64,000 bases of DNA from Methylacidimicrobium sp. AP8 (lineage in GTDB: Bacteria > Verrucomicrobiota > Verrucomicrobiia > Methylacidiphilales > Methylacidiphilaceae): NCBI RefSeq assembly GCF_903064525.1, contig NZ_LR797830.1, forward strand, positions 558,001 through 622,000. The letters are read 5' to 3'. Positions 39,453 to 48,275 of the stretch are shown here, piece by piece (position 1 is the stretch's first letter; each line of letters begins with the position of its first letter). Under the pieces are notes generated by a model. It was not told the DNA's origin. It saw only the letters and a list, made by a program, of their open reading frames with translations, and searched no databases. Position numbers and translations under genes: made by a program.

Positions 39453-40549
39453 GCGAGCGGAGCGTCGTCATCGCCTGCGGAGGCACGGGCGGGCATTTGC
39501 TGCCCGGAATCGCCGTCGCCGAGGAGCTGCGGCGGAGAGGCAAAGAGATTCTCCTGCTCCTTTCCGAGAAGCAGATCGACCGGACGGCATTGGAGGGAGA
39601 GGAGAAGTTCCCGTGGGAAACCCTCCCCGCCATCGGCTGGCCTGGGGGCCTTTCCGGGAAGACCCCGGCATTTTTCTGGAGGCTCGGATCCAGCTGGCGG
39701 AAGTGCGGGAGCCTCTTCCGCCGCTTGGCTCCCGGGGCGGTTCTCGGGATGGGGGGGTTTATCAGCGCCGCACCGCTTCTCGTCGCCAAGAGACGGCAAA
39801 TTCCGACGCTGCTTCACGAGTCGAATGCCGTCCCCGGCCTGGTGACGCGCATCCTGAGCCACAAGGTCGATCGCGTCCTTCTCGGCTTCCCGGAATGCAA
39901 GAAGCGTCTGCCGGGAATTCCGTCGATCGTGACAGGGACTCCGCTCCGCGCCCGGCTTCGGAGGGTCCCGCGCGACGAGGCGGCCAAGGCGCTCGGTGCG
40001 GCCCCCGATCGCTCGACGATACTGGTCCTGGGCGGCAGCCAGGGGGCGCATGCCTTGAACCGGCTTTTAGGGGACGCCGCGCCCGCGCTCGCGCGAGGGG
40101 GGAGCCCGGTCCAAGTGCTCCATCTATCCGGTCCGGCGGATCGGGAGGCTTGCGCGGCCGCCTATCGGGCGCAGGGAATTCCCGCCGTGGTCGAGAGCTT
40201 TTCCCATAGGATGGATCTCTTCTACAGCCTGGCCGATGTGGCGGTCGCCCGCGCCGGGGCCGCCACCCTGGCGGAAGTCGCCTTCTATGCATTGCCGGCT
40301 ATCCTGGTCCCTTTTCCGTTTGCCGCCGACGACCATCAGCGTATCAATGCGAAAGCTTTCGTGGCGGCGGGAGCGGGCCTGGCCTACGATCAGGCTGCCT
40401 TGTCCGGAGAAATCCTGGCGGAAAGGCTTCTGGAAATCCTGCGCGACGAGAGGCGGCGGCGGGCGATGGCTGCAGCGGCGGCCGGCTTGGCTCGGCCGGA
40501 GGCGGCGAAGGCGGTCGCGGATGAGGTGGAAAAATGCATGCAACATTGA
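39449..40549 (+). CDS. murG: UDP-GlcNAc:lipid I N-acetylglucosaminyltransferase MurG
   Basis: 366 residues from ATG 39449, overlapping ftsW. GT-B fold, family 28. N-terminal glycine-rich loop CGGTGGHLLPGIAVAEEL, the VLGMGGFISAAPLLVAK block, the HESNAVPG motif, LVLGGSQGAHALNRL at the start of the second domain, and the donor-site region ARAGAATLAEVAFYALPAIL followed by PFPFAADDHQ. It converts lipid I into lipid II at the cytoplasmic face. The last 16 bases overlap the start of murC. Confidence 0.96.
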   Translation: MSERSVVIACGGTGGHLLPGIAVAEELRRRGKEILLLLSEKQIDRTALEGEEKFPWETLPAIGWPGGLSGKTPAFFWRLGSSWRKCGSLFRRLAPGAVLGMGGFISAAPLLVAKRRQIPTLLHESNAVPGLVTRILSHKVDRVLLGFPECKKRLPGIPSIVTGTPLRARLRRVPRDEAAKALGAAPDRSTILVLGGSQGAHALNRLLGDAAPALARGGSPVQVLHLSGPADREACAAAYRAQGIPAVVESFSHRMDLFYSLADVAVARAGAATLAEVAFYALPAILVPFPFAADDHQRINAKAFVAAGAGLAYDQAALSGEILAERLLEILRDERRRRAMAAAAAGLARPEAAKAVADEVEKCMQH

Positions 40550-42831
40550 CCGGTTCCTGGAACGGCCTTCTCAGTCGGCCCTGTCGCATCCACCTTGTCG
40601 GAGTAGCAGGCTCCGGTGTCGGTCCCCTCGCCCGCCTCCTGCTGCTCCAAGGGCATCAGGTATCCGGATCGGACCTGCGCCGGACACCCGCCGTCGCCGA
40701 GCTCGAGCGGATGGGGCTGCGCTTCTTTCTCGGACACGACGGCGATCTGCCCGAAGGGGTGGAGCTTCTGGTCTATTCGTCAGCCGTCCGCGAGGACAAC
40801 CCGGAGCGCCGGATCGCCGCGGCACGGGGGATTCCGAGCGTGCGGAGGGCCGACTTGCTCCGGGAGCTTTGCCGGACCAAGAAGTCGGTCGTCGTCGCGG
40901 GGATGCACGGAAAGACGACGACGACGGCCCTCCTCGCCCATATCCTCCGGCGGAGCGGTTGGGAGCCTTCCTACTACGTCGGTGGGGATGCGCCGGTGCT
41001 CGGCGCGAGCGCGGACTGGGGCAAAGGGGACTACATGGTTGTCGAAGGCGACGAGAGCGACGGCACGCTGGCTTTGTTTGAACCCTCCCACGCGGTCCTC
41101 TTGAACGTGGAGGAGGAGCATCTGGATTTCTATCCGGGCATGGAGGCGATCCTCGAGGTCTTTGCCGCCTTTCTGGACCGGTGCACGGGCAAGATCGTCT
41201 ATTGCGCGGATGATCGGCATGCCTCGCTGCTCAATGCGGGGCGAAGCAATGCGGTAGGCTATGGATTTGGCCCGGCGGGCCGGTACCGAGCCGAGCGGGT
41301 CGAGCTGGGGCCGTTCGAGAGCACGTTTCTGCTGGTTGCCGGGGGAGAGCCCCTCGGGAAGGTTCGAGTACCGCTGCCCGGAAGGCAAAACGTCCAGAAT
41401 GCCTTGGCCGGAATCGCCATGAGCCTGGAGCTGGGGCTGCCTTTCGCCGATGTCGCTCCGGCCACGGCGAGCTTCCGGGCGGTCAAGCGACGCTTCGAGG
41501 TACTCTTTTCCGGGCCGTCTTTCCTGATCATCGACGACTACGCGCATCATCCCACCGAGATTCGGGCGACCTTGGCCACCGCCGCGATAGCGCGCCGGGA
41601 GCGGGTTGTGGCACTTTTCCAGCCGCATCGCTATTCGCGCGCCCGCGGGCTGGAAAAGGACTTCGCAACGGCCTTCGGCGAAGCGGATCTGGTGTTGGTG
41701 ACGGACATCTACGGAGCGGGTGAGTGTCCCATCGAGGGCGTGAGCCCGGAACGGCTGGCGCAAAAGATCGCCGAAGGGAGCGGGGTCAAAACCCTTTTCG
41801 CCCGCAGCATCGCGGAAGCGAAGAAGCTGGCGGCTGCCAACTTGCGGCCGGGAGATCTTTTGCTGGCGCTGGGGGCCGGAGACGTGCACCGTGTCGCCCG
41901 GGCGCTGGCTGCGCAATGCGCCCTCTACGAGGAGCTGCGCCGATCTCTGTCGTCCTCGGCGGTTCTCTCCCTTGAGGAAAACCTGGGGTCCCATACCTCG
42001 TCCGGCCTGGGGGGCGCGGCGGAATTCTGGTGCGAGCCCGCCTGCCGGGAGGACCTCCGCCGGCTGATCGAAATCGCCGCTCGCGAGAAGCTGCCTCTGA
42101 CGGTTCTCGGCAGCGGCGCGGGCAGCTTGATCCGGGACGGAGGCGTCCGCGGCGTCTGTGTGAGCCTCCGCCATCCCGCCTTTTGCCGGGTGGAGTCGGA
42201 CGGCGGTCGAATCGCCGCCGGCGGCGGAGTGCTTCTTGACCGGCTGGCCGCAGAAACCGCCCGCTGCGGAATCGACGGGTTTTCTTTCCTTTCCGGTCTT
42301 CCCGGCACGCTCGGTGCATGGCTGGCGGCCGGCACGGGAGCCGGGAGGCGGCGGCTCGTCAACAGGCTGGAAGAGGTGGTCCTGATCGATCGAACCGGCA
42401 GGTGGCACACCCTCGACCGGGCGGAGATCGAATCCTGGCCGGATGAGGGGCCCGGGTGCCCGCCCGGCATCATTGTCGGCGTACGCTTGCGGAGCACTCC
42501 CTTCCGGGCGGACGAAGCTTTTTGGTCGCCGGCGGCGGATGGCGCCGGGGACGGAGGCTCCCCGCGGAACGGTCGGCGGCTCGACGGGGTTTTGCGGTTT
42601 CCGCCGGGGGCGGACGTCCGGCGGCTTTGGAAAGGATTGGGCCCGGATTCCCTTGCCGTCGGGGGAGCTTGGATCGATCCCCGGTTCCCGAATCGGATCT
42701 GGTTGCGGGAGGGAGCTAGATCGGCGGACGTGGTCGCGCTCCTGGAAACAATCCGGAAGCGGCTGGGTGAGGAAATGGGTGTCGAGCCGGCTTTCGGCCT
42801 CGTCCTTGTCGGAGAAGAGGAGAGTTCGTGA
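40534..42831 (+). CDS. murC: MurC ligase fused to a degenerate MurB-like domain
   Basis: 765 residues. Residues 1 to about 460 are UDP-MurNAc:L-Ala ligase: IHLVGVAGSGVGPLARLLL, ATP loop AGMHGKTTTTALLAH near 122, VVEGDESDGTLALFEP, DDYAHHPTEIRATL, and FQPHRYSRARGL. From about 470 a MurB-like domain follows with an FAD-site remnant (LTVLGSGAGSLIRDGGVRG) and SGLPGTLGAWLAAGTGAG. The usual Y-R-x-S motif is missing, GSxFKNP is replaced by LRFPPG, and the C-terminal LEPEV-type glutamate by VEPAF. MurC should work; MurB activity is doubtful. MurC-MurB fusions are known in Verrucomicrobia-related bacteria. Confidence 0.92.
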   Translation: MHATLTGSWNGLLSRPCRIHLVGVAGSGVGPLARLLLLQGHQVSGSDLRRTPAVAELERMGLRFFLGHDGDLPEGVELLVYSSAVREDNPERRIAAARGIPSVRRADLLRELCRTKKSVVVAGMHGKTTTTALLAHILRRSGWEPSYYVGGDAPVLGASADWGKGDYMVVEGDESDGTLALFEPSHAVLLNVEEEHLDFYPGMEAILEVFAAFLDRCTGKIVYCADDRHASLLNAGRSNAVGYGFGPAGRYRAERVELGPFESTFLLVAGGEPLGKVRVPLPGRQNVQNALAGIAMSLELGLPFADVAPATASFRAVKRRFEVLFSGPSFLIIDDYAHHPTEIRATLATAAIARRERVVALFQPHRYSRARGLEKDFATAFGEADLVLVTDIYGAGECPIEGVSPERLAQKIAEGSGVKTLFARSIAEAKKLAAANLRPGDLLLALGAGDVHRVARALAAQCALYEELRRSLSSSAVLSLEENLGSHTSSGLGGAAEFWCEPACREDLRRLIEIAAREKLPLTVLGSGAGSLIRDGGVRGVCVSLRHPAFCRVESDGGRIAAGGGVLLDRLAAETARCGIDGFSFLSGLPGTLGAWLAAGTGAGRRRLVNRLEEVVLIDRTGRWHTLDRAEIESWPDEGPGCPPGIIVGVRLRSTPFRADEAFWSPAADGAGDGGSPRNGRRLDGVLRFPPGADVRRLWKGLGPDSLAVGGAWIDPRFPNRIWLREGARSADVVALLETIRKRLGEEMGVEPAFGLVLVGEEESS

Positions 42832-43730
42832 ACGGGAAGCTACGGGTGGTTGTTCTTGCGGGAGGCCCTTCGCGGGAAAGGGACGTTTCGGTGCAAACGG
42901 GACGGGCGGTGACGGCGGCTCTGCGGGGATTGGGCTATCCGGTCGAAGAGGTCGATCCGAAAGACGGCGACGTCTCGATTCCCGACGGAACCGACATCGT
43001 GTTTCTCTGCCTGCATGGAACCTTCGGGGAGGACGGGCAGATCCAGAGGCTGCTTCTGCGGAGGGGAGTCCCGTTCACGGGGAGCGGAGCCGACGCGAGC
43101 GAGCGGGCTTTCGACAAGTCGTGGAGCAAGGAGATTTTCCGTAAAGCGGGCGTGCCGACCCCGAGCTGGACGCTGGTACGGTCCGCCGAGAAGCTCCCGC
43201 TTCCGCTTCCCTTCGTGCTCAAGCCCGCGCGGCAGGGCTCGAGCATCGGAATCAGCTGCGTCTTCGACGAGAAGGACTTTCCGGAAGCCTTCGCCCGGGC
43301 GGCGAGGGAAGATCATCTCGTCGTGGCGGAAGCCTATGTCGAAGGAAGAGAGCTGACCGTGGGGATCTTGGGGGAAGACATCCTGCCGATCGTGGAGATC
43401 CGCCCGAAGGCCGGCTTTTATGACTACCGCAACAAATACACCGCGGGGGCCAGCGAATATCTCTGCCCGGCGCCGCTTCCGGCCGGCCTGTCCGCATCGG
43501 TTGCCGCCGTCGCCCGCTCCGCGTATCGATCGCTCGGTTGCACGGTCTACGGGAGAGTCGATTTGCTTCTGGATCGTTCCGGGAATCCCTGGGTTCTGGA
43601 GGTGAACACGATTCCGGGCATGACGGAAACAAGCCTACTCCCGAAAGCTGCTCAGGCGGCCGGGATCGCCTTCCCGCAGCTCTGCGAACAGATCCTCCTG
43701 CTTTCGTGGAACGGCTGGAATCGGGAGTGA
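42828..43730 (+). CDS. ddl: D-alanine-D-alanine ligase
   Basis: 300 residues from GTG 42828, overlapping the murC stop. ATP-grasp enzyme: N-terminal VVVLAGGPSRERDVSVQTGR, FLCLHGTFGEDGQIQRLLL, PFTGSGADASERAFDKSWSK, FVLKPARQGSSIGISCVFDE, and the C-terminal metal/ATP site LEVNTIPGMTETSLLPKAA. It supplies the dipeptide used by MurF. Length is typical of the short DdlB type. Confidence 0.96.
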   Translation: MNGKLRVVVLAGGPSRERDVSVQTGRAVTAALRGLGYPVEEVDPKDGDVSIPDGTDIVFLCLHGTFGEDGQIQRLLLRRGVPFTGSGADASERAFDKSWSKEIFRKAGVPTPSWTLVRSAEKLPLPLPFVLKPARQGSSIGISCVFDEKDFPEAFARAAREDHLVVAEAYVEGRELTVGILGEDILPIVEIRPKAGFYDYRNKYTAGASEYLCPAPLPAGLSASVAAVARSAYRSLGCTVYGRVDLLLDRSGNPWVLEVNTIPGMTETSLLPKAAQAAGIAFPQLCEQILLLSWNGWNRE

Positions 43731-45864: not shown

Positions 45865-45899
45865 CCGAGAGGCCTCGCACGGGAAACCAGACAGGCGGC

Positions 45900-47057
45900 A
45901 TGAGCATTCGCATCGTGGGGGCGGGAGGAGCAGGAATTCAGGTCCTCGACGAATGGATCCTTCTCTCGGATCGCCAGCAGGGGAGCGTCGCCTGCGACGG
46001 AGAGGCCTGTGCGGTCGAAGGGTCGCTGGCGTCCGAAAAGCTCCTCCTCGCCCCCGACCTCGCCGGAGGCCTCGGCTGCTTCGGCAGCCGCGACCTCGCG
46101 TGGCGGATGGTAGGACAGGAGAACCGGCGGCTGGATGCGCTTCTGAAGGATTGCTCCGGTTTGTTGATCGTGATCGGGCTTGCGGGCGCGACGGGCGCGA
46201 CCGTCGCGGAAGCTCTTTCCCTCAAGGCGGTGGAACGCGAGATTCCGACCACCGTTTTTGCTTTTCCTCCCTTTCCTTTCGAGCCGGCGCAGCGGCGGGA
46301 GTCGGCGGAAGCGACCCGTGCTGCTCTTCCGGCCGAAGTCTCTCTCTTTCTTTTTCCGCCCCCGGCCTTTTTTGAAGATCCGCTTCCGGGTGTAGCCGCG
46401 GTTCGCCGCGGGTTGCGCGAGTTCCACGGCGCTCTCGCACAATGGATCGGAGTCTGGGAGGGCGTGGCGAACGGTGCGGTCCGCCCAATCCTTCGTGGCG
46501 GCGGAGCGGAAGATTCCCCGTTTGCCCGGGGCGGAAGGATCGACGGTTGCCGCCTCTTCGGAGTGGCGGCTGCGCACCTCGACTTCGCGTCGCCTGGGTT
46601 GCTGGACGGGGCCGAGTTCCGGGAAGCGGCCGAGAAAGCCGATCGATGCCTCGCCTACGTGGAGGGTGGCGACGGCCTTTCCGGGTCGTGCGGGGAGCTG
46701 GGGCGGAAGCTGCAGGAGCAGCTCGCCCAGGGAACGGACCTCTGGCTTCTGCAGCGGACGGAGGAAGCTCCGGCGGAAAACCGGCTCTTGCTTCTCGTAG
46801 GTCGGGCCGCCTCCCGGCATCATCGCGTATCGGAATGCCCGGAGGAGGGCCGGGGCAAGCCGGAGGAGCCGGCCGCCCCCGCCCGCGCCGCTCCGGAACC
46901 GGAAGGGGTGGCCGCCTTTCCTGCTTTGGAGGCCACCCCGTTTGCGAAAACCGCAGCTACCATGTACAAAGGGGTCAATCTCGATATTCCGGCCTTTCGG
47001 CGGAGGAGAGGAAGCCGGTTTGCAAAGGAGAGGCCGGCCGAGCCGGGAGAAGCCTAA
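45900..47057 (+). CDS. ftsZ: Highly divergent FtsZ with degraded GTPase motifs
   Basis: 385 residues from ATG 45900, directly after ftsA, the standard ftsZ position. It can be aligned with FtsZ along most of its length: IRIVGAGGAGIQVLDEW for IKVIGVGGGGSNAV, an LAGGLGCFGSRDLAWRM stretch for the G-L-GAG-NPEVG loop, CSGLLIVIGLAGATGATVAEA for [20 protein letters not shown], and TTVFAFPPFPFEPAQRRESA for TVGVVTKPFxFEGxxR. Its C-terminus is LDIPAFRRRRGSRF, the conserved FtsA/ZipA-binding peptide, after a Pro/Ala-rich linker. The tubulin signature GGGTGTG is reduced to AGATGAT, and no T7 NxDFADV loop is recognisable. GTP binding and hydrolysis are therefore doubtful. Confidence 0.82.
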   Translation: MSIRIVGAGGAGIQVLDEWILLSDRQQGSVACDGEACAVEGSLASEKLLLAPDLAGGLGCFGSRDLAWRMVGQENRRLDALLKDCSGLLIVIGLAGATGATVAEALSLKAVEREIPTTVFAFPPFPFEPAQRRESAEATRAALPAEVSLFLFPPPAFFEDPLPGVAAVRRGLREFHGALAQWIGVWEGVANGAVRPILRGGGAEDSPFARGGRIDGCRLFGVAAAHLDFASPGLLDGAEFREAAEKADRCLAYVEGGDGLSGSCGELGRKLQEQLAQGTDLWLLQRTEEAPAENRLLLLVGRAASRHHRVSECPEEGRGKPEEPAAPARAAPEPEGVAAFPALEATPFAKTAATMYKGVNLDIPAFRRRRGSRFAKERPAEPGEA

Positions 47058-47144
47058 AGGGAGTCGCGGGCCGCCGGGGACGCGGCTTGCCGCGGATCGG
47101 ATATGGCGAGCGATCGTCGGCAGGAGGAAGGGAGGCAAGCGCGA

Positions 47145-48275
47145 ATGCCGGCCTGGGATAGGCCCGTCCGCCGGAGGCGGATCGAGAAGGGTCTCTCGCA
47201 AAAGGAAGTGGCCAGCCGGGTGGGAATCACCCGACAGGCTCTCCATGCCATAGAGACCGGGCGGTACATTCCGAACACTCTGGTTGCGATCCGCCTTGCC
47301 CGGGCGCTCGGCAGCCGTGTCGAAGAGCTCTTCCCCTGTTGGGAAGAAGTCGATCCTCCTCTGTCGCCCGGTCCGTTCCCCTGGGTGCGAGGCAGCAGGC
47401 GCCTGATCTTGGCGGACGTGCGCGGCCGCCTGATCCCCTACCCGGTGGAGCGGTTGGAAGAGGGCTCCGGCGTCTTCGCGGCAGCCGACGCCCTCCTCCC
47501 GGCCGGCGATCGGCGCGGAGAGTGGACCCTCCTCTCCTCGGCGGCCGTCATTCAACGCAGCGCGTTCTTTCTCGGCTGCGATCCGGGCATCGGCCTGCTG
47601 GTCGAAAGAATCGCGGCCTTAAGCCCGAACCGGCTCCGTTGGATCTCCTGCTCGAGCGAAAAGGCGGCGGCTGCGCTCCGCGCAGGCCAGACACACCTGG
47701 CCGGCTGTCATCTGCCGACCGGGGAGCCGCGCAACAACCGCGTGCTCGCCCGAGAGGCGTTGCAGGGAGTCGGTGGAGCCTTGATCCGCTTCGCGCAGTG
47801 GGAGGAGGGAGTGGCCGTCGCGCGGGGAAATCCGTTCGGCATCCGCTCGGTGGAAGATCTGGCCAATCCGGGCCTCCGGTTCCTGAATCGGGACCCGGGA
47901 TCCGGAAGCCGTGCGCTTCTCGACGAGCTGCTTCGCAGGCAAGGGATTCCGGCAGAACGGATCCCGGGGTACGAGAGAACGGCGGGCAGCCCGGTTGCCG
48001 CCGCACGGGCCGTGGCTTTCGGGATAGCCGACGCCGCATGGACGAACCGCCCTTGCGCGCAGGCGCAGGACGTCGAGTTCCTCCCCTTGGGCGTCAGTGA
48101 GTTCGATTGGATCGTTCCCCGAGACCTCCTCGATCATCCAACCGTCGCCCTCGTGCTCGATCTCCTCTCCGATGCGCGGATGCGGGCCGAATTCGACGCG
48201 CTTCCCGGATATGAGGTCAGCCGGATGGGAACGGTCGCGGCGAGATTCGGCCCGAAGGGCGAGATCTCCGGCTAG
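47145..48275 (+). CDS. XRE-family HTH regulator with periplasmic-binding-like sensor domain
   Basis: 376 residues from ATG 47145, nine bases after GGAGG; an upstream ATG at 47103 is possible. Residues about 5-62 are an XRE helix-turn-helix (IEKGLSQKEVASRVGITRQA, LHAIETGRYIP). The rest is a PBP-like domain of the molybdate/LysR-substrate type (GNPFGIRSVEDLANPGLRFL, NRDPGSGSRALLDELLRRQG, DVEFLPLGVSEFDWIVP). Homologous one-component regulators sense molybdate or related oxyanions, but the ligand cannot be read here. It starts about 90 bases after ftsZ on the same strand and shares a palindromic CTAG at its stop with the convergent ABC transporter gene. Confidence 0.82.
   Translation: MPAWDRPVRRRRIEKGLSQKEVASRVGITRQALHAIETGRYIPNTLVAIRLARALGSRVEELFPCWEEVDPPLSPGPFPWVRGSRRLILADVRGRLIPYPVERLEEGSGVFAAADALLPAGDRRGEWTLLSSAAVIQRSAFFLGCDPGIGLLVERIAALSPNRLRWISCSSEKAAAALRAGQTHLAGCHLPTGEPRNNRVLAREALQGVGGALIRFAQWEEGVAVARGNPFGIRSVEDLANPGLRFLNRDPGSGSRALLDELLRRQGIPAERIPGYERTAGSPVAAARAVAFGIADAAWTNRPCAQAQDVEFLPLGVSEFDWIVPRDLLDHPTVALVLDLLSDARMRAEFDALPGYEVSRMGTVAARFGPKGEISG

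Follow-up and report, generated by a model that had tools for sequence, protein, structure and literature searches.

The window analysed here, a 64,000-nt stretch of the acidophilic methanotroph Methylacidimicrobium sp. AP8 (GCF_903064525.1), corresponds to positions 558,001 to 622,000 of the forward strand of NZ_LR797830.1 (G000:C1:558001-622000), the single contig of a 2.30 Mb genome. Its open reading frames and their profile matches delineate a cell-wall cluster in the order murF, mraY, ftsW, murG, murC-murB, ddl, ftsQ, ftsA and an ftsZ-like gene, with MurC and MurB joined in that order in one frame and ddl directly downstream (Table 1). The closest named match of the fusion is to Methylacidimicrobium cyclopophantes (65%). 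The TGA stop of the fusion and the GTG start of ddl overlap (GTGA, 42828-42831), and the stop is likewise embedded in GTGA or ATGA over the likely ddl start in 9/9 family genomes inspected. MurC-MurB fusions have been known since 2016, when the verrucomicrobial form was described in V. spinosum, with 3/3 Methylacidiphilales carrying it (Naqvi et al. 2016, PMC4803751), and ftsW-murG-murB/C-ddl-ftsQ is their usual setting (PMC4803751).

Table 1 Features of the murC-murB fusion and the adjoining ddl gene, in window coordinates.
Feature	Position	Strand	Basis
murC-murB fusion ORF, 765 aa, unbroken	40534..42831	+	open frame and profile matches
MurC half, residues 1-452	40534..41889	+	TIGR01082 match, residues 18-458
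MurB half, residues 453-765, predicted MurB fold, catalytically dead as judged from its residues	41890..42828	+	AlphaFold2, PDB fold matches
N-terminal part of FAD lobe, residues 478-547, constrained part	41965..42174	+	dN/dS, conserved columns
Gly530, replacing Asn of GxG[ST]N (E. coli Asn51)	42121..42123	+	
SGLPGTLG, remnant of the GIPGTxGG flavin loop; MNAG after it lost	42292..42315	+	
Former substrate-binding region, residues 627-707, nearly unconstrained	42412..42654	+	dN/dS
Asp637 at the catalytic Arg159 position; YRxS replaced by PDEG	42442..42444	+	alignment
Gly685 at the general-acid Ser229 position; GSxFKNP replaced by DGVLRFP	42586..42588	+	alignment
Gly755 at the catalytic Glu325 position	42796..42798	+	alignment
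ddl (D-Ala-D-Ala ligase), start overlapping the fusion stop	42828..43730	+	

Two genes further along were also noted. The ftsZ-like gene that follows ftsA (45897-47057, + strand) is very divergent, scoring 43 bits against Pfam Tubulin and only 31 of the 295 bits set for TIGR00065, and has GGAGIQ and GLAGATGAT where the usual GTP loops stand; it is the sole Tubulin/FtsZ match in the genome, and the other family genomes have at most one each (40-82 bits). Downstream of it lies a regulator (47103-48275, + strand) that combines HTH_3 (53.6 bits) and PBP_like (161.4 bits) Pfam domains and is perhaps ligand-responsive.

The MurC half has the features of a working ligase. It scores 402.7 bits against TIGR01082 (cut-off 335.1), retains the P-loop GMHGKTTTT, EGDESDG and DDYAHHPTEI motifs, and keeps every column that is invariant among 15 MurC rows. 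In family profile searches, on which all genome-wide statements here rest, the fusion was the only match to TIGR01082 above the cut-off. A second MurC that would make the fusion dispensable was considered and rejected, the other strong Mur-ligase match (C1:129971-131311, + strand) falling below the MurC cut-off. That ligase, with GTHGKTTT and EPRSNTTRR motifs, looks from its sequence like Mpl, which suggests peptidoglycan recycling in this genome.

The MurB half, by comparison, scores below every MurB cut-off (NF010480, 121.6 of 259 bits; TIGR00179, 66.6 of 144.5; MurB_C, 18.1 of 27), while its match to FAD_binding_4 (60.8 bits) exceeds the cut-off of 26.4. To compare it residue by residue, the window protein was aligned with E. 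coli MurB (NC_000913), eight standalone relatives and 23 intact fused relatives, the latter comprising five Methylacidiphilum fusions and 18 from the rest of the order; residues were assigned from this sequence alignment rather than from a residue-level structure alignment. Arg159, Ser/Cys229 and Glu325 are kept in every intact sequence aligned, position 229 being Cys in most type II relatives. An earlier note on this DNA had proposed that the fused MurB domain has lost its catalytic residues, and the alignment bears this out, placing Asp637, Gly685 and Gly755 at the three positions. Depending on where a two-residue shift is placed, the Glu325 position is occupied by Gly755 or by Ala753, and in neither case by Glu. 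Further replacements are Tyr158 by Pro, Lys217 by Asp, Lys232 by Arg, Asn233 by Phe, Gln/His288 by Phe and Asn51 by Gly, and the residues that contact the substrate diphosphate (Tyr190, Lys217, Asn233 and Gln288 in E. coli numbering) are absent from the window protein. In characterised MurB, Arg159 and Glu325 bind the substrate carboxylate, Tyr190, Lys217, Asn233 and residue 288 bind the diphosphate (PMC12844806), and Ser229 acts as general acid (Benson et al. 1997, cited in PMC12844806). With all of these gone, no known MurB mechanism would be expected to allow catalysis, and the residues argue against a functional fused MurB half in vivo. The same note had the start of the FAD-binding region and a PGTLG turn surviving, which holds only in part: GxG[ST]N has become GxGxG in all six full-length Methylacidimicrobium fusions, and PGTxG is not kept outside the window species. 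The GxG[ST]N motif is presumably the FAD pyrophosphate loop. Loss of its GSN and of MNAG suggests that FAD binding would be weak or absent.

Two trivial explanations for these replacements were rejected. A frameshift, sequencing error or chance event does not account for them, since no break interrupts the frame and every one of the six full-length Methylacidimicrobium genomes shows the loss, and the alignment with 32 intact MurBs, including that of E. coli, rules out catalytic residues hidden elsewhere in the domain. All three catalytic residues are lost in 6/6 full-length congeneric fusions and in a further family member, G012, and the replacements differ among congeners, with Asp, Glu or Lys for Arg159, Gly or Arg for Ser229, and Gly, Asp or Asn for Glu325. 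The dead domains retain 42-52 of the 118 columns that are invariant in eight intact fusions, and the N-terminal FAD lobe carries a GGxAEFWCEPA motif that the third genus, represented by G012, has too. In M. cyclopophantes (G001; L012 / L044), about 15 further residues have been lost across the flavin loop, and the fused domain of G012 is more degraded than that of G001, indicating that decay of the dead domain is continuing.

Despite these losses, a MurB fold is predicted. An AlphaFold2 model of the MurB half (alignment of 22 sequences) reached a pLDDT of 86.9 and a pTM of 0.83; prediction was poor over one stretch (residues 210-226 of the half), and the intact MurBs in its input alignment bias it towards the MurB fold. 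Foldseek searches of this model against the PDB returned 4pyt (TM 0.86/0.89), 1hsk (0.86/0.88) and 3tx1 (0.83/0.88), and the top 18 PDB matches were all MurB, ahead of other flavoproteins, so that a different FAD_binding_4 flavoprotein was rejected as its identity. The domain is thus predicted to be alike in fold to the type II MurBs of S. aureus (1hsk, 4pyt) and Listeria (3tx1; TM 0.83-0.89 overall), but has the catalytic and substrate-phosphate residues of that type replaced; according to the model, the domain has kept the fold of MurB but not its active site. In the AlphaFold2 model of the full-length fusion, the MurB half was poor and unusable for domain contacts. Based on the residues present, we conclude that the C-terminal half of the fusion would be a MurB pseudoenzyme.

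A cell with such a domain was predicted to need another MurB, and the genome search found one. A 351-aa type I MurB is encoded at G000:C1:703420-704472 on the reverse strand (MurB_C, 90.1 bits), the only MurB_C match in the genome besides the fusion. It is intact (FGYRKSIF, GSFFKNP, LEPEP) and shares with the type I enzymes of E. coli and P. aeruginosa the Tyr-loop insert, YRxS, GSFFKNP and LEPE, so that the counterpart of type I MurB in this organism is the standalone gene and not the fused domain. Its neighbours, by sequence appearance, are mla-like transport and OsmC-like genes, and it lies outside the cell-wall cluster.

The distribution of the two forms was examined across 13 genomes of the family: seven of Methylacidimicrobium, G012 (2.5 Mb in 70 contigs; inferred to be Methylacidithermus-like) and five of a second genus, by inference Methylacidiphilum. 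Standalone MurB is present in 7/7 Methylacidimicrobium and in G012, and the fused MurB is dead in seven of these eight genomes, that is, in all with a full-length fusion, the remaining assembly (G004) holding just the last 68 fusion residues at a contig end. In contrast, the five Methylacidiphilum genomes have the fused MurB only, and it is intact (YRK, GCIFKNP, LETE). Across the order, a MurB_C match was found in 55/62 genomes, the seven without one all being incomplete assemblies (63-87% completeness). Outside the family, 42 genomes have a MurB_C match, exactly one each and of the short fused type, and the 18 fused MurBs sampled from this part of the order are all intact. A close type I MurB occurs outside the family in only four genomes of a phylum sample of 241. 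One of these, a class relative (G155), encodes both an intact fusion (VTYRHC, GCIFKNP, LEPE) and an intact type I MurB, and looks like the redundant intermediate that would be expected. Dead MurB tails were sought in eight other Verrucomicrobiota with a standalone MurB, where Mur ligases were mostly in frames of 440-560 aa; a few were longer, in G275 (698 and 627 aa) and G111 (885 and 599 aa). One complete genome of the same class (G169; 2.7 Mb, single contig, 100% complete) had neither a MurB_C nor a TIGR00179 match, which could reflect withheld sequence, a filter miss or a real loss; its listed congeners carry MurB_C in frames of 770-824 aa.

Phylogenies bear on how often the fused domain died. 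In the rpoB tree, G012 branches first, with Methylacidimicrobium and Methylacidiphilum together (99/97), and a grouping of G012 with Methylacidimicrobium is rejected (p-AU 0.007); a published 400-marker tree has the same branching order (PMC9543262). The MurC tree instead places G012 with Methylacidiphilum (94/90) without rejecting the other grouping (p 0.28), and in the MurB tree the two dead lineages come together, on very long branches. If the rpoB order is right, the fused domain either lost its activity on two occasions or Methylacidiphilum secondarily regained an intact copy. Two independent losses of activity are likely, with rpoB pointing to two events and the MurC and MurB trees ambiguous. 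Among the sequences sampled, the standalone copies of Methylacidimicrobium and of the Methylacidithermus-like lineage group as one clade (100/99), which is consistent with a single acquisition followed by reciprocal loss. The ancestor of this family of methanotrophs may have gained a type I MurB, and the resulting redundancy would have had opposite outcomes: Methylacidiphilum would have discarded the newcomer and retained the active fusion, whereas in Methylacidimicrobium and the Methylacidithermus-like lineage the newcomer would have stayed and the fused active site died.

Selection on the dead domain is uneven. Between congeners (Nei-Gojobori; the wider pairs show partial saturation at synonymous sites, so that G002-G003 and G005-G006, both close pairs, are the ones to rely on), dN/dS was 0.07-0.13 in the MurC half and 0.22-0.39 in the dead MurB half, against 0.12-0.24 in standalone MurB and 0.04-0.15 in the intact fused MurB of Methylacidiphilum. 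For the dead half, the upper 95% limits in four bootstrapped pairs were 0.36-0.49, with intervals that exclude 1. Within it, the N-terminal FAD lobe stood at 0.13-0.21 in three pairs, close to the 0.15-0.25 of the FAD domain in the active standalone MurB; the C-terminal lobe stood at 0.18-0.46, while the former substrate region was near-neutral at 0.56-0.67 (upper confidence limits 0.98-1.30). The dead frames contain no stop or frameshift; in simulations of a neutral frame of equal length, about 2% were stop-free at 0.36 substitutions per site. These values indicate that the active-site constraint has gone and that part of the fold is still selected.

The reading favoured here is that a MurB pseudoenzyme arose through type I takeover and reciprocal loss, and that its N-terminal lobe, which follows immediately on the last MurC helix, would support the folding, stability or assembly of the sole MurC while the old substrate-binding lobe drifts almost freely. 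We give this explanation as a whole a probability of roughly 0.6; within it, the domain is probably kept as a structural partner of MurC. The earlier note suggested that the domain may have taken on a structural or regulatory role towards MurC; these data are compatible with that, the dN/dS pattern favouring a structural role of the N-terminal lobe over ligand sensing. The main rival to a structural role is a slowly decaying vestige without function, its frame held open by the coincidence of its stop with the ddl start (translational coupling) and by the rarity of clean deletion. The conserved stop-ddl overlap, the near-neutral substrate region and the further erosion in G001 and G012 all fit such a vestige, but coupling would hold the frame open without constraining amino acids, and the N-terminal lobe is about as constrained as its counterpart in an active enzyme; we regard this account as unlikely, while carrying appreciable weight.

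A regulatory domain that tunes MurC activity through retained binding of FAD, NADPH or a UDP-sugar would sit at a sensible place in the pathway, and the constrained part is indeed the FAD-fold lobe. However, the Asn of GxGSN and the MNAG flavin loop are lost, as are the diphosphate ligands in the window protein, and the substrate region drifts; retention of the lobe adjoining the last MurC helix, together with loss of the catalytic and substrate-binding part, favours a structural role over substrate sensing and makes such a sensor improbable. Joint retention of both proteins in 8/8 genomes of two genera would also fit a scaffold role in which the domain draws in the standalone MurB and thereby keeps MurB and MurC working together, a very improbable arrangement given that the standalone gene lies beside mla-like and OsmC-like genes and not in the cell-wall cluster. 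That the domain is still a reductase working through other residues is scarcely credible: the fold is retained and three congeners have Asp at the Glu325 position, but Arg159, Ser/Cys229, Lys217 and both motifs (YR, GSN) have disappeared together, the substrate region evolves almost neutrally and the genome encodes an intact MurB.

Studies of V. spinosum point both ways on the structural role. Its fusion, with the same domain order of MurC then MurB, is essential in Tn-seq (PMC12283558) and complements an E. coli murB mutant in vivo, unlike the fusion described here, whose MurB half lacks the catalytic residues and which is accompanied by a separate type I MurB. The V. spinosum MurC works alone in E. 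coli and the MurB domain alone fails (PMC4803751), a hint that the halves interact in this family; equally, because that MurC complements E. coli without the MurB domain, MurC need not have such a partner. The chlamydial MurC-Ddl protein likewise joins MurC to a second enzyme within the PVC group, with one half dependent on the other (cited in PMC4803751), but there the partner is Ddl and both halves are catalytic. A stronger proposal, that MurB twice independently became an obligatory non-catalytic subunit on which MurC depends or by which it is tuned after type I takeover, is possible and is advanced only tentatively.

Searches of the open-access literature found no account of a dead form of the MurC-MurB fusion. 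For annotation, the fused gene of these genera should not carry the name MurB, and it is the standalone gene that should inform statements on MurB. Channelling or co-expression is the usual explanation for fused enzymes. In this fusion, one half has lost catalysis and the other is the only MurC of the cell, yet the protein has been retained. As intact (Methylacidiphilum), redundant (G155) and dead (Methylacidimicrobium, G012) versions are all available for comparison, a structural service of MurB to MurC in the Verrucomicrobiota becomes testable, a question relevant to the failure of the V. spinosum MurB domain on its own.
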